From NCBI RefSeq assembly GCF_002243515.1, contig NZ_CP022657.1, positions 340,001-404,000 on the forward strand: a stretch of 64,000 bases of DNA, read 5' to 3'. The translations under genes and the position numbers were made by a program. Origin of the DNA: Tumebacillus algifaecis (GTDB lineage: Bacteria > Bacillota > Bacilli > Tumebacillales > Tumebacillaceae). Of the stretch, positions 2,706 through 16,665 are shown in pieces (position 1 is the stretch's first letter; each line of letters opens with the position of its first letter). Under the pieces are notes generated by a model. The model saw nothing but the letters and a program-made list of their open reading frames with translations, was not told the DNA's origin and did not search any database.

Positions 2706-2882
2706 ATGTCGGACCAAGAGCATATGATCCGCAACCTGATGTCGATCATCGAGCGGATGGTCGATCTGCAAGACCGAATGGTAAGACAATTGGAAACCGT
2801 CACTTCACAAGTCGAAGAACTCCAACACCGCCTCGACGAATATGACCGAAAAGAGCAGCCGAAACTCATCCGGCTCAACTGA
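2706..2882 (+). CDS. Small coiled-coil hypothetical protein
   Basis: This 58-residue protein is strongly charged and has a heptad-like hydrophobic pattern from residue 8 to 45 (LMSIIERMVDLQDRMVRQL onward), so a short coiled coil is likely. The ATG at 2706 is chosen because AAGGAGTG lies 8 to 15 bases before it. An upstream in-frame ATG at 2646 lies inside the def terminator and is unlikely. I do not recognise a family. The position just before spo0F may be conserved, but nothing in the sequence gives a function. Confidence 0.65.
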   Translation: MSDQEHMIRNLMSIIERMVDLQDRMVRQLETVTSQVEELQHRLDEYDRKEQPKLIRLN

Positions 2883-3089
2883 TCTTTGCTGTTCTATCCC
2901 CCCGTATCTCTTCATATCCTGTACACGGAACTCTCTCACCACAGCACGATGTTAACGAAAGCTTGTCGTATAAAGTCGAAATTTAAAAGAAAGTCAGTTA
3001 TTAGTGAATGGCGAGAAGGGTTTTTAGGACCGGACGCGAAACTGTACTGTCATAGAAGCTGAACGATTTGAAGAGAGGGGACTCACTCG

Positions 3090-11694: not shown

Positions 11695-11740
11695 GCTTTA
11701 ATGTGTTGCATTCATCATGATGATTGTAGGTGAACGTTCC

Positions 11741-13033
11741 TTGCATACTATCGCAGAAATGGAACTGATGAAGCTTACCGAACTGTATAAGTTAGCCAAA
11801 CAGTTCGAGATTCCTTATTACGGCACGCTCAAAAAGCGCGAGTTGATCTTTGCGATTTTGCGCGCGCAGGCAGAAGGGGAAGGCTTGTTGTTTGCCGAAG
11901 GGGTTTTGGACATCATGCAGGACGGATACGGGTTCCTGCGTCCGGTCGGCTACACCTCCTCTTCGGAAGACATCTACGTCGCAGCTTCTCAAATCCGCAG
12001 ATTTGACCTGCGCACCGGTGACCGCGTCTCGGGCAAAGTGCGCAAGCCAAAAGAAAATGAGCGCTACTTCGGGCTCTTGCAAGTCGAAGCGGTGAACGGC
12101 GTCTCCCCGGAAGTGGCTGCCGAGCGCATTCATTTCCCTGCGCTGACCCCGCTGTTTCCGACACGCAAGTTTACGATGGAAACAACTTCTGAAAAATATT
12201 CCACGCGCATCATCGACTTGCTTACTCCGGTCGGTTTCGGACAGCGCGGACTGATCGTCGCACCACCGAAAGCAGGTAAGACGATGCTGCTCAAAGAGAT
12301 CGCCAACAGCATCACCACCAACCATCCGGAAGTCGATCTGTTCGTCTTGCTGATCGATGAGCGTCCGGAAGAAGTCACCGACATGCAGCGCTCCGTCAAT
12401 GCGGAAGTGGTCGCTTCCACATTTGATGAACTGCCGGAGAACCACATCAAAGTCTCCGAGCTGGTCTTGGAGCGCGCGATGCGCTTGGTTGAGCATGGCC
12501 GAGACGTCGTGATCCTGATGGACTCGATCACTCGCCTCGCCCGCGCCTACAACCTCGTCATCCCACCGTCGGGACGCACGTTGTCCGGGGGGATCGACCC
12601 GGCGGCACTGCATCGCCCGAAGCGCTTTTTCGGCGCGGCGCGCAACATCGAGGAAGGCGGCTCGCTGACCATTCTCGCCTCGGCGCTGGTCGATACCGGC
12701 TCGCGGATGGACGATGTGATCTATGAGGAGTTCAAAGGCACGGGCAACATGGAGCTGCAACTCGATCGTCGTCTGGCCGAGAAGCGCATCTTCCCGGCGA
12801 TCGACATCCGCAAATCGGGCACGCGCCGTGAAGAATTGCTCGTCTCCCAAGAACATCTCGACAAGATCTGGGCGATGCGCAAATCGATGAGCGACAACGC
12901 GGATTTTACCGATCTCTTCCTGAAGACGTTGAAAAAGACCAAGTCGAACGTGGAGTTCCTCGCCGCGATCGAAGGGACCAAGGAAGCCAAGCAGTTGAAC
13001 AAAGAGGAAGCAAAAGGGACGGACGCACGTTAA
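11741..13033 (+). CDS. rho: Transcription termination factor Rho
   Basis: This 430-residue hexameric RNA helicase ends transcription. It has the N-terminal Rho domain, then the RNA-binding OSB fold ([15 protein letters not shown]) and the ATPase core with Walker [20 protein letters not shown] and the GTGNMEL block. The TTG at 11741 follows AGGTGA by 7 bases and gives (M)[15 protein letters not shown]. The in-frame ATGs at 11717 and 11720 lack a ribosome binding site but cannot be excluded. The gene end overlaps its own terminator hairpin. Confidence 0.95.
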
Positions 13034-13046: not shown

Positions 13047-13094
13047 GTGTTATCATAAGACGGATAAGACATGTTAAGAGAGGACGAATTGTGC

Positions 13095-14366
13095 ATGCAT
13101 CTCGTTTATGCTGATAAAAAAGGGCAGATCTACGACCATCCCGATCTGCTCGCACTTGGGCGCAACGGGGAGTTCTTGACCGATATTTATGAAGAAGAGT
13201 TGATTCCGTTGCCAGACGGGGCGACCTTGGTGTCACTGCCGGGCACGAAAGCGCTCGGCTTTGATCCGGAGACGGGCAAGACGATCTCGCTGCCGGCCGA
13301 CTTTACAGCGGTCGGCGCTCTGCTCCCACAAGGTTTCACACGCCTGCTCTTGCCAGGCTATGCCAAGCAGGATGATGCGGAACCGTTCCCGCTGTTCGGC
13401 TACACCGCAGTGGTCTGGAAAGAGGACGGCTTCTATGTGGCCGCCGATGCTTCTGACGATCCGTACCGCTGGAATCCGGAGATCTTCCCGGATGATCAGG
13501 TCGAGGAGAAGGTCAAACAGATCACCGCACAATACCCGGAGAATCGAATTTGGCAACATCTGAGCAACTGTGCGCTCGGCTACGGTTGCCTGACTTCGCG
13601 CAACACTTTCCTCGAGCGCTGGGAAGGGGCGCTGCCCGTCTCTTCGACCTGCAATGCGGGCTGTGTCGGTTGCATCTCCGAACAGCCGGACGATTCTCCG
13701 TTCCCGTCGCCTCAGGTGCGGATGAACTTCAAGCCGACGGTGGAAGAGATGGTCGAACTGATGCTGCATCACTTGATGGCGTCTGATGATGCGATCATCT
13801 CGTTCGGTCAAGGCTGTGAAGGGGAGCCGTCCACGCGCGGCATCGACATCGCAGAAGCGATCCGCCGCGTGCGCGAACAGACCGATCGCGGCTTTATCAA
13901 CATCAACACGAACGCTGGCCTCGTCGATATGATCAAAAAGATCACCGATGCCGGGCTCGATCTGATGCGCGTCTCGACGATCTCCGCCCTCGATGATCAC
14001 TACAACGCCTATTACCGTCCGCGCTTGTATGGTGTCGAGGACGTCGGACGGTCTTTGAAATATGCGGCCACAAATGGGGTATACACCTCGATCAACTATC
14101 TGATCTTCCCAGGGGTCACCGACCGTGAGGAAGAGATCGAAGCGATGGTCGATTTTATCAACCAGAATGAGGTCAAACTGATCCAGATGCGCAACCTGAA
14201 CATCGACCCGGAACTGTACCTCGGCACGATCCCGAAAGCGAAAGGCGAACTGCTCGGCATGAAGACGATGCTCGATATCTTCAAGAGCGAGTGCCCGAAT
14301 ACGGTGATCGGCTCCTACACGCACGTTCCGCCGTCCGAGTTACGCAAGTATAGCAAAAAGCCCTGA
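13095..14366 (+). CDS. Radical SAM protein of unknown specificity
   Basis: This 423-residue protein has an uncharacterised N-terminal domain of about 175 residues and then a radical SAM barrel. The cluster motif is CNAGCVGC (C186, C190, C193). GQGCEGEPS follows as the SAM-binding GGE-like segment, and ININTNAG and RVSTISA fit later barrel strands. No C-terminal SPASM cysteines are seen. The ATG at 13095 is chosen because GAGAGGA lies 10 bases upstream; an ATG at 13071 lacks such a site. It is a single gene flanked by terminators, so the substrate cannot be inferred from context. Confidence 0.9.
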   Translation: MHLVYADKKGQIYDHPDLLALGRNGEFLTDIYEEELIPLPDGATLVSLPGTKALGFDPETGKTISLPADFTAVGALLPQGFTRLLLPGYAKQDDAEPFPLFGYTAVVWKEDGFYVAADASDDPYRWNPEIFPDDQVEEKVKQITAQYPENRIWQHLSNCALGYGCLTSRNTFLERWEGALPVSSTCNAGCVGCISEQPDDSPFPSPQVRMNFKPTVEEMVELMLHHLMASDDAIISFGQGCEGEPSTRGIDIAEAIRRVREQTDRGFININTNAGLVDMIKKITDAGLDLMRVSTISALDDHYNAYYRPRLYGVEDVGRSLKYAATNGVYTSINYLIFPGVTDREEEIEAMVDFINQNEVKLIQMRNLNIDPELYLGTIPKAKGELLGMKTMLDIFKSECPNTVIGSYTHVPPSELRKYSKKP

Positions 14367-14390
14367 CCGCTACGGTCAGGGCTTATTTTC
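14356..14390. terminator. Bidirectional terminator between radical SAM gene and peptide gene
   Basis: AAGCCCTGACCG and CGGTCAGGGCTT form a 12-bp stem with a 3-base loop. The plus strand ends in ATTTTC and the minus strand in TTTTTGC, so it can serve both convergent genes. Confidence 0.85.
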
Positions 14391-14402: not shown

Positions 14403-14636
14403 TTAGTGGTTCGGGCCGTGGTCGGTCCACCAGAGATCGCAAGTGTTGGTCGGTTCCGTTTCGATGACCACTTCGCTTGCAACTGACAGGACGTGGACTT
14501 CTGCAATCAAGGTCTCCGGACCTGTCACGTTCGGACCAAAGTCGGTCCACCAAGCTTGTGCGTCGCCTTGCGGTGTTGCCAGTACGGTTACCACTGCAAC
14601 TGTGGACAGGAAGATAAAGCCGATAAGTTTTTTCAT
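14403..14636 (-). CDS. Small exported peptide precursor, candidate signalling pro-peptide
   Basis: This 77-residue protein has a clear Sec signal peptide: MKK, a hydrophobic core at residues 4-20, and an AQA cleavage site at 26-28. The predicted mature part starts WWTDFGPN and ends WWTDHGPNH, so a nearly identical 8-residue motif sits at both ends of a 49-residue segment. GGGAGGCACAAC gives a strong ribosome binding site. The gene lies downstream of, and parallel to, an HTH-TPR regulator, the layout of RRNPP receptor/peptide pairs such as Rap-Phr and NprR-NprX. It has its own promoter and terminator. The pheromone role is inference; a secreted structural or antimicrobial peptide is the alternative. 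Confidence 0.75.
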   Translation of the reverse strand: MKKLIGFIFLSTVAVVTVLATPQGDAQAWWTDFGPNVTGPETLIAEVHVLSVASEVVIETEPTNTCDLWWTDHGPNH

Positions 14637-14755
14637 GTGTGTTGTGCCTCCCGAGAAAGTAGATTCACCCTGCTGTGAATATTGCTGCGATGAGTAGGTG
14701 GAAATTTTTGATTGTTTAAGTGCTGATAATGGTGATGGTGTCTGCGCTATAAATT

Positions 14756-14783
14756 ATTATACAGATCACAGTTACAAATACAA
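14756..14783 (-). promoter_or_regulatory. Sigma-A-like promoter of the peptide gene
   Basis: On the minus strand TTGTAT (14783-14778) and a perfect TATAAT (14761-14756) are separated by 16 bases. The -10 box lies 119 bases before the peptide start, so a long leader is predicted. Confidence 0.6.
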
Positions 14784-14830
14784 CAGATTTTCGTGAAAAA
14801 GTGATCATAAAATTATCTACAATTTGTAAC
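14771..14830. promoter_or_regulatory. Perfect 9-bp inverted repeat, possible operator
   Basis: GTTACAAAT at 14771-14779 and its exact reverse complement ATTTGTAAC at 14822-14830 are 42 bases apart. The first arm abuts the -35 box of the peptide promoter. Two arms about five helical turns apart would suit a dimeric regulator that loops DNA. Binding by the neighbouring TPR regulator is a hypothesis. The region is AT-rich, which raises the chance of coincidence. Confidence 0.4.
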
Positions 14831-14860
14831 AAAATGCTACATAATCTCCCTTCTACACAA

Positions 14861-14890
14861 ATAAAGGACTTGTCCGCTCGGACAAGTCCT
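14861..14890 (-). terminator. Terminator after the TPR regulator gene
   Basis: GGACTTGTCC and GGACAAGTCC form a 10-bp stem around a 4-base loop. On the minus strand it is followed by TTTATTT. It separates the regulator transcript from the peptide promoter. Confidence 0.8.
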
Positions 14891-14911
14891 AGAAAAGGTG
14901 GAGATTGAAAG

Positions 14912-16201
14912 TTATCCCATAATGCCGATCTTCCGCAGTGTCTCATCGAGGATGACATGCATCCGACGCAGCGTATCGGTCGCTTTCACATAGTCGTTTT
15001 GCGCTTCGTACAGGTCGGCAAGCTCTTGATAAACAAGGCGTAATTCGCGCAGTTGTTCCTGTTCGGTCAGCGTGGCAATCGTCCGTTCAAACCAGTCAAC
15101 TGCCGCGGCGAGATCGCTTTGCTCGCGCTTGACGACGGCCAGTGCGTGGTAGATCGCCGCGAGGTTTTGGGCGTTGTCTGGAAGCAAGAACAGCGATTCT
15201 TGGCAGAACGCCTCCGCCTGTTGCAACTTGCCAGCTTTGACATAAAGCTTGGCGATCTCACCGTGAATTTTCGCATCGTCGCTCGGAATTTCAAGTTTGC
15301 GATATTCTGCTAAACATTCATGTAAAAGATCAATTGCTTTTTCGATACGTCCTTGTTCAGCTTCAACAAGTGCAAAGTTAGCTTTTACGTCGATCGCTTG
15401 TTTAATATTTTGCAAGCTTTCGTAAATGGTCAGGGCATCATGGCAATAATCGATGGCGCGGCTAAAGTCGCGCAATTTCTTATACGAGACACCCAGTCCG
15501 AGATAGACATCGGCCAATTGGCGAAGGTTGGTCGAACCGCGCAACAAGTTATACGCTTCTCTGTAAAAGCGAATGCCATCTTCATATTCACCTAAACGAT
15601 AGTGGGCGTGCGCCAGATTGGTCACGATGCGGGCGCGTGTGTAGGGATCGATCTCTTTGAGGCGGGAGAACGTTTCATATGCTTTGCGCCAATGGTAGAG
15701 CGCCAGAGGGAAATTTTCTTGTCCAAACCGCGCTTCGCCCAGTTTGTTTAAGCAGAGCAAGGCCGTATGATCATCATTTTTACGGATCACCGTATCGAGT
15801 ACCTGTTCAAACATCTCGACCGCTTTTTCGATGTCGCCGCAGACCATGAACGCTTCCGCAAGGTCGAACTGCACTTCATGCACGGGCAGATGTGGAGCTG
15901 GGTTGCCGATCAACTCGCGAAACAACGGGATCGCTTGTTCAAAATTGTTGGCCGCCAAATAGGCTTTGGCCAGTTTATAGGTGCTCGTCTGCTCCATCTG
16001 GGTCTGCATGTCAGCAATAAAATATTCGATCGGCGTCTCTAAGCGCTCCGCAACCTGCTCCAATACCTTGTGTGATGGATATGCTTTGTCCGATTCGATC
16101 TGCGAAATCATCGATATGGTGACAATCCCGGCCCCCAACTCCTGTTGGGTCAAGCCCTTCTGTACCCGCAATTCCCGTATTTTCTGTCCTAAAGAGATCA
16201 A
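14912..16201 (-). CDS. HTH-TPR transcriptional regulator, candidate RRNPP-type peptide receptor
   Basis: This 429-residue protein has an N-terminal XRE-type helix-turn-helix (residues 4-60, GQKIRELRVQKGLTQQELG) followed by about nine tetratricopeptide-like helix pairs to the C-terminus. The architecture and length match peptide receptors such as NprR, PlcR and AimR. The TTG at 16201 is chosen because AGGAGGG lies 7 bases upstream. It is parallel to the small exported peptide gene. No ligand can be assigned by sequence; other HTH-TPR proteins act without peptides. Confidence 0.88.
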   Translation of the reverse strand: MISLGQKIRELRVQKGLTQQELGAGIVTISMISQIESDKAYPSHKVLEQVAERLETPIEYFIADMQTQMEQTSTYKLAKAYLAANNFEQAIPLFRELIGNPAPHLPVHEVQFDLAEAFMVCGDIEKAVEMFEQVLDTVIRKNDDHTALLCLNKLGEARFGQENFPLALYHWRKAYETFSRLKEIDPYTRARIVTNLAHAHYRLGEYEDGIRFYREAYNLLRGSTNLRQLADVYLGLGVSYKKLRDFSRAIDYCHDALTIYESLQNIKQAIDVKANFALVEAEQGRIEKAIDLLHECLAEYRKLEIPSDDAKIHGEIAKLYVKAGKLQQAEAFCQESLFLLPDNAQNLAAIYHALAVVKREQSDLAAAVDWFERTIATLTEQEQLRELRLVYQELADLYEAQNDYVKATDTLRRMHVILDETLRKIGIMG

Positions 16202-16403: not shown

Positions 16404-16467
16404 ATCTTGCAGTGTGTATGAACAAAGGGCCATGGCAAAATCTATGGCCAGGAAAGAGGTGACAAGA

Positions 16468-16665
16468 ATGAAAGCAAATCTCCATCCGAAGTACTATGTT
16501 ACTACTGCTTCCTGCGCTTGCGGCAACAAGTTCGAAATGGGTTCCACTAAGGAAAACCTCAAAGTAGACGTTTGCTCGCAGTGCCACCCGTTCTATACTG
16601 GTAAGCAAAAGTTTGTGGATGCCGGCGGTCGCGTAGACAAGTTCAAGAAGAAATACAACCTGTAA
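16468..16665 (+). CDS. rpmE: 50S ribosomal protein bL31
   Basis: This 65-residue ribosomal protein begins [10 protein letters not shown], the usual bL31 start. It is the zinc-binding form: CAC at 14-16 and CSQC at 35-38 supply cysteines. The ATG at 16468 is chosen because GAAAGAGGTG lies just upstream and the family starts here; an in-frame ATG at 16414 lies too close to the promoter. It sits after rho as in Bacillus. Zinc-containing bL31 is often replaced under zinc limitation by a paralogue not seen in this window. Confidence 0.96.

Follow-up and report, generated by a model that had tools for sequence, protein, structure and literature searches.

A candidate RRNPP-type quorum-sensing pair of Tumebacillus with a short motif at both ends of its exported precursor

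We analysed a 64,000-nt stretch of the genome of the soil bacterium Tumebacillus algifaecis (positions 340,001 to 404,000 of NZ_CP022657.1; hereafter the window), focusing on a two-gene locus that a sequence-only reading had put forward as an RRNPP-type regulator and its peptide. The genome (G000) is a single contig of 4,516,965 bases. As that reading had it, the minus strand between the rho and radical SAM genes and rpmE encodes a 429-residue regulator with a helix-turn-helix (HTH) and tetratricopeptide repeats (TPR), a putative cytoplasmic pheromone receptor (P0002; 14912..16201; TTG start after AGGAGG), and a 77-residue exported peptide precursor (P0001; 14403..14636; ATG start, GGGAGG ribosome-binding site at 14647-14652). 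The radical SAM gene (13071-14366) is convergent with the peptide gene and follows rho (11717-13033), while rpmE (16414-16665) and then a thymidine kinase gene lie beyond the regulator. The locus was compared across a family sample of seven genomes, namely that of the window, G001, T. flagellatus (G002), T. lacus (G003), T. permanentifrigoris (G004), T. avium (G005) and G006.

The tandem arrangement described earlier holds in that both genes are on one strand with the regulator upstream, but they do not form a tight operon. The 275 nt between them contain a terminator-like hairpin 3′ of the regulator gene (14865..14890, minus strand; 11-pair stem and T-rich tail; −23.3 kcal/mol, z −5.2 for the folded 56-nt stretch). 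A TATAAT box can be read 5′ of the peptide gene (14756..14761, minus strand), with a weak −35 element and at a site absent from the output of the consensus scan; TATAAT also precedes the peptide gene in the five other family genomes inspected (G006 left out). With a hairpin at the end of the regulator gene and TATAAT ahead of its own start, the peptide gene is probably transcribed from a separate promoter. At its other end, the peptide gene is separated from the radical SAM gene by a bidirectional terminator-like hairpin (14358..14384, both strands; 12-pair stem; z −6.3 for a 48-nt stretch on the minus strand). A hydrophobic 38-residue open reading frame (ORF) that overlies the TATAAT box (14716-14832, minus strand) had passed a first crude export filter, failed a later one, and is probably spurious. 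An operator search of the sequences upstream of the peptide and regulator genes found no 9-mer common to them on either strand and only two common 8-mers; it also found one 6-nt inverted repeat in the peptide-gene leader, and we claim no binding site.

The precursor begins with a predicted 28-residue signal peptide (14553..14636, minus strand), with an MKK start, a hydrophobic core and a terminal AQA. This cleavage site and those below are predicted with the (−3,−1) rule for signal peptidase I. The mature part, counted from the first WW, comprises 49 residues directly after AQA. It opens with motif copy 1, WWTDFGPN, the predicted N-terminus of the mature peptide (14529..14552, minus strand), continues through a variable linker of 32 residues that is poorly alignable among orthologues (14433..14528, minus strand), and closes with motif copy 2, WWTDHGPNH, whose C-terminus is set at the stop codon (14406..14432, minus strand). 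The best internal eight-residue match in the mature part is 7/8, a value reached by none of 20,000 shuffles of this region, in agreement with the near-copies reported by the sequence-only reading. Its further suggestion that both ends yield the same ligand does not stand, because the copies, WWTDFGPN(V) and WWTDHGPN(H), differ at position 5 (F/H) and position 9 (V/H).

An orthologous regulator is encoded in all seven family genomes, the six others being 73-93% identical to that of the window (closest, T. avium AR23208, 93%; then T. lacus, T. flagellatus and T. permanentifrigoris, 74-75%), and in all seven the regulator and peptide genes adjoin the same radical SAM gene. Between two species groups, regulator identity is 88-92% over the HTH, 78-82% over residues 65-300 and 53-59% over residues 301-429. 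The double motif is present in six of the seven genomes. The window's genome, T. avium and G006 share WWTDFGPN and WWTDHGPNH, T. permanentifrigoris has WWNEPGPNH and WWNENGPNH, G001 has WWNETGPNH and WWNEPGPNH, and T. flagellatus has WWSEHEPNH twice; T. lacus has copy 1 only, WWNDHEPNE, in a 37-residue precursor. Conservation of the C-terminal motif in relatives, which had been proposed as a check, is thus found in 6/7 with the window counted.

The positions of the copies are conserved along with their sequences. In copy 1, W1, W2, P7 and N8 are invariant in all seven genomes; the first WW is preceded by A in six orthologues and by G in one, and the −3/−1 residues in the other six family genomes (A.A three times, T.A, L.A and I.G) fit signal peptidase I by the rule. 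Copy 2 closes exactly at the stop codon in all six genomes that bear it, that of the window included. Among the three closest species, each of the three pairwise comparisons gives no non-synonymous change in 17 motif codons, as against 2-6 in 27 signal-peptide codons. These observations bear on a simpler possibility, that the pair is an ordinary RRNPP system with a single ligand, in which just one copy serves as the pheromone and the other end is left over from a duplication. The T. flagellatus copies, identical over 27/27 nt, fit a recent duplication or gene conversion, and the lone copy of T. lacus and the single-motif paralogous precursors of G001 and G002 (see below) are also in its favour, but it sits poorly with the exact C-terminal placement of copy 2 in 6/7 species, with copy 1 at the signal-peptidase site in 7/7 and with copies whose amino acids are unchanged across the three closest species. 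We consider it rather unlikely.

The part between the copies behaves differently. In the six doublet precursors the linker measures 11-47 residues and varies freely in sequence, giving mature lengths of 29-65 residues. This variation, together with the single copy of T. lacus, argues against the idea that the mature 29-65-residue peptide acts whole, as a paired-tryptophan hairpin, a bivalent ligand or an antimicrobial whose expression the regulator merely controls. That idea draws on the conserved, tryptophan-rich termini, on the seemingly separate promoter of the peptide gene, and on the fact that the two-ligand interpretation has to presume processing. Paralogue-adjacent precursors with one, two or five copies of a short motif, described below, suit short ligands better, and we regard a peptide acting whole as improbable.

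The convergent radical SAM gene next to the precursor gene in 7/7 genomes raises the further alternative that the precursor is the substrate of this enzyme, in the manner of a ribosomally synthesized and post-translationally modified peptide. Radical SAM enzymes are known to install cross-links at tryptophan. However, the radical SAM gene is also present (E<=1e-60) in 5/7 genomes of other families of the order, and inspection of those five loci with 1.5 kb of flank revealed neither the regulator nor the window peptide; moreover, Pfam assigns the protein only a Radical_SAM domain, and the precursor bears a Sec-type signal. We therefore hold this alternative to be highly improbable. In a genome of another family, G013, the corresponding interval from the radical SAM gene to rpmE contains a 56-residue exported ORF that ends in YYPRPR and has no adjacent regulator (L120:2234-2404).

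Beyond the family, we searched 398 genomes of the class, scoring up to 14 candidates per genome in a hidden Markov model (HMM) search with the peptide. The DNA pattern WWx[D/E]xxPNH-stop occurs in 6/398 genomes, all with the doublet. At E<1e-9, the peptide HMM identifies 7/398 genomes, which are the six doublet genomes and T. lacus, each with the peptide beside an orthologous regulator; a peptide gene without the regulator, which would have spoken against the pairing, was not found in this sample. Although 41/398 genomes pass E 0.1, the best match outside the family has E 0.0026, and we treat such weak matches as noise, as those listed lie mostly within long open frames. The locus is syntenic in the genus, and searches of 72,556 plasmid records with the peptide (E up to 1) and of 50,697 phage records with the regulator (E up to 1e-20) gave no match; a mobile or phage origin was therefore rejected.

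In the regulator, Pfam places HTH_3 at residues 8-61 (E 1.1e-10) and TPR_12 repeats behind it (E 9.8e-34), and PlcR chain 2qfc matches residues 3-63 (E 1.2e-9). The regulator's length of 429 residues with TPR repeats lies within the 250-500 residues used to define RRNPP/RRNPPA receptors, its N-terminal HTH is shared by all of these but Rap, and the small exported precursor that such receptors adjoin is linked to it in 7/7 genomes, with signal-peptide features assigned by rule. Reference RRNPP pairs are given a spacing of −50 to 191 bp in the RRNPP_detector report (PMC10075063), a range that the 275-nt gap of the window exceeds. The AimR subfamily model NF038310 scores 26.2 bits, below its cut-off of 70. 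An AlphaFold2 model of the regulator, built from 41 alignment rows, is a helical TPR superhelix (mean predicted local distance difference test score 90.1, predicted template-modelling score 0.72). When aligned by VIA-align to Foldseek's matches, the model resembles RapI (Z 25.3, root-mean-square deviation (rmsd) 5.6, 348 aligned), apo NprR (5dbk; Z 24.9, rmsd 5.8, 347 aligned) and PlcR (Z 20.2, rmsd 9.0, 277 aligned). The predicted fold is thus compatible with an RRNPP receptor, and proves none.

Regulator paralogues also bear on the pairing. A search of the window's genome with the regulator gives 33 matches (E<1e-5), of which 30 had loci and were surveyed (including the partial genes L063, L066, L067 and L069, and L062, whose regulator frame contains a stop), with 49 genes of the window as controls. 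Under a looser filter, an exported small ORF lies directly downstream (−60 to +30 nt) at 11/30 regulator loci and 1/49 controls. Ten of the eleven are plausible by eye (L047, L048, L049, L058, L059, L060, L061, L062, L065 and L070), L064 being dropped, so that the genomic context supports the RRNPP-type assignment made by the sequence-only reading. The ten plausible precursors start at most 10 nt downstream, and three of them hold two to five motif copies. At L048 (G000:C1:3198171-3199439), the regulator gene overlaps that of a 92-residue exported precursor (2775-3053) that repeats FINGGEPLSPK five times, starting after ENA; L049 has two copies of SITTPI.D and L061 two copies of GPGPMS. A first, stricter filter, which demanded a ribosome-binding word and was applied within 400 nt on either side, yields 13/30 regulator loci and 2/49 controls (both controls being one ORF; Fisher p 3e-5); it missed the repeat precursors L048 and L049, which the looser filter recovered.

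Repeats also mark relatives of the regulator in other families of the order, where 3/25 loci pass the first filter, all of them in one genus (g4) and all with repeats directly downstream: L139 has VDEHGY four times, L140 SDEHIY five times, and L146 GDDVGLS three times plus a variant, most copies being preceded by Ala. The looser filter flags 6/25, but among these just L140 and L146 are convincing; it missed L139 because the regulator match contains an in-frame stop, as does that of L140, and the end of the match was used as the gene end. Taken together with the repeat precursors of the window's genome, these loci indicate that multi-copy precursors recur in this regulator family. Closer in sequence to the window peptide is a 42-residue precursor of T. 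flagellatus directly behind a paralogous regulator, in which SEA is followed by IWNNGEPLFVAPSL; its peptide HMM score, E 8e-5, comes next after the family orthologues. The counterpart in G001 has TQA followed by IWNEHEPMVITNAL (E 0.04), and that in G004 has HQA followed by IFYGGDPVGGIVKLD. The G001 and G002 precursors thus bear a single related motif, IWNEHEP after TQA and IWNNGEP after SEA, starting at the likely signal-peptidase site, and the paralogous regulators beside these single-motif precursors are 35-36% identical to that of the window.

Two side observations concern the paralogous loci. The small exported peptides at L053, L055, L058, L059, L062 and L070 of the window's genome share a P-rich core (PEPLGII, DPGPLGVI, PGPGPLGV, DPKPHGVI). 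Two close paralogues, L043 (45%, T. permanentifrigoris) and L044 (43%, T. avium), are seemingly followed by a larger exported protein in place of a small precursor, as judged by eye.

We interpret the locus as a chromosomal RRNPP-type quorum-sensing pair of Tumebacillus in which one precursor would yield two near-identical ligands, and we put the probability of this reading at roughly three in four. The reading as a pheromone pair is well supported by genomic context. The two genes and their linkage, the conserved copies with their cleavage-site context and free linker, the restriction of the peptide to the family in our sample and the paralogous pairs can all be read from sequence. How the peptides are cut, taken up and bound, in which direction the regulator responds and which genes it controls are putative. 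The precursor would be exported by Sec, and signal peptidase I would cut after AQA, thereby freeing the N-terminus of copy 1. Extracellular proteases would next cleave behind copy 1 and ahead of copy 2, the C-terminus of copy 2 being preset by the stop codon, to give two near-identical peptides of about 8-9 residues from one precursor. An oligopeptide permease, using one of the six SBP_bac_5 systems of this genome (a family also found in 11/14 control genomes), would import both, and the peptides would bind the concave TPR surface of the regulator and alter its action on DNA. For the steps after export, we extrapolate from known RRNPP systems. Processing and activity are described for both copies of Phr3T and of Phr105, with different proteases acting on different copies (PMC11343458), which makes the same plausible for the window precursor.

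Several results weigh against this interpretation. Copy 2 is missing from T. lacus. Where it is present, the residues ahead of it (DL, NL, PD and ST) are unlike the Ala that precedes copy 1, so a single cut rule cannot account for both. Mean copy similarity is higher inside one precursor (85%) than across species (66%), but 2/24 permutations reach the observed value once close species are collapsed. The 275-nt spacing and the terminator-bounded unit of the peptide gene differ from the directly adjoining paralogous pairs, and at the 23 loci of the nearest paralogues (L017-L039; 39-45% identical) neither filter gives a convincing adjoining exported ORF, the sole directly downstream one (1/23) looking spurious. 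Among the 13/30 loci of the stricter filter are the pair in the window, one ORF entered at two loci (L052 and L061) and the doubtful L057. The looser filter, applied within 350 nt on either side, flags 21/30 loci and 19/49 controls, a small excess, for which reason the directly downstream count alone was used above. Finally, generic TPR domains of the LGN type outscore the RRNPP receptors in the structure comparison (Z 27-29), and the fold is therefore not specific to RRNPP receptors.

A more tentative proposal is that the two-ended layout is a design feature of the precursor. The start of copy 1 would depend solely on signal peptidase and the end of copy 2 solely on the stop codon, leaving one additional cut to be made for either ligand, and not the same one for both. 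Two slightly different ligands, WWTDFGPN and WWTDHGPNH, released under the control of different proteases, could then tune one core receptor, and a start at the signal-peptidase site could be recurrent in the HTH-TPR systems of the order. Since the −3 residue is unfavourable for signal peptidase in ENA (L048) and HQA (L119), this recurrence would rest on the window family, L117, L118, L139 and L140, by the rule alone. We think this proposal doubtful as it stands.

Known systems share parts of this arrangement. Duplicated pheromones are reported for Rap, NprR, PlcR and AimR systems (PMC9765709, PMC11343458, PMC5199041), and repeats for 17/17 atypically large NprX precursors (PMC9765709), so the earlier view that a twofold-ligand precursor is unusual does not hold in general, although copies at both extreme ends do look unusual. 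The Rap-Phr systems of Phr3T and Phr105, as described in PMC11343458, resemble the window pair in having an exported precursor with two identical or near-identical conserved copies, a free linker and one copy at the C-terminus. They differ in that Rap lacks the DNA-binding HTH, in that the first copy of Phr105 starts 7 residues past the signal-peptidase site, whereas copy 1 of the window lies directly at it, and in the spacer, which is 4 residues in Phr105 and 11-47 in the Tumebacillus precursors; the motifs are unrelated (PMC11343458). By layout and model match, NprR-NprX is alike in combining an HTH and a long TPR domain with an adjoining exported precursor (PMC9765709). AloR-AloP of Paenibacillus polymyxa, compared by its description, is alike in its many HTH-TPR paralogues per genome (16 there), and all but three AloR homologues are reported with a downstream small ORF; the tested AloP13 signal, SHGRGG, is C-terminal, unlike the double-ended window precursor (PMC7425212).

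The statement of the sequence-only reading that no characterized pheromone with WWTD is known to it agrees with the literature consulted, where we found none, but double-tryptophan pheromones exist. The streptococcal ComR-ComS (XIP) system pairs an RRNPP receptor with GLDWWSL (PMC5131902, PMC9765709), a likeness by motif alone, in which WW is internal in ComS and initial in the window motif (PMC5131902); LTSWWGL is listed for PrgX (PMC9765709). A text search of the literature with six of the motifs returned no match, and the literature search found nothing on RRNPP systems in Tumebacillus or on NprR quorum sensing in Alicyclobacillus; as far as titles and the openings of abstracts tell, the quorum-sensing literature on Tumebacillus describes no such system. 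Alicyclobacillaceae are counted among the families with RRNPP candidates near biosynthetic clusters, according to the RRNPP_detector report, whose public candidate list may already hold the window pair (PMC10075063). Multi-copy pheromone precursors as such are already known from Phr3T, Phr105 and NprX; relative to the literature found, what is new is the sequence code, the placing of copies at both extreme ends, where copy 1 starts at the signal-peptidase site, and the syntenic location of the pair in the rho-rpmE interval.

The processing of multi-copy precursors has been called "a fascinating mystery" (PMC9765709), and has since been explained for two Rap systems (PMC11343458). If our interpretation is correct, the survey of paralogues reveals a single genome that carries many receptor-precursor pairs. 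A little-studied genus would then gain a communication system that belongs to its core and is inherited vertically, with a definite ligand open to synthesis, and its species would offer a natural series, with two identical copies, two diverged copies or one copy, in which to ask why duplicates persist and how they are cut.
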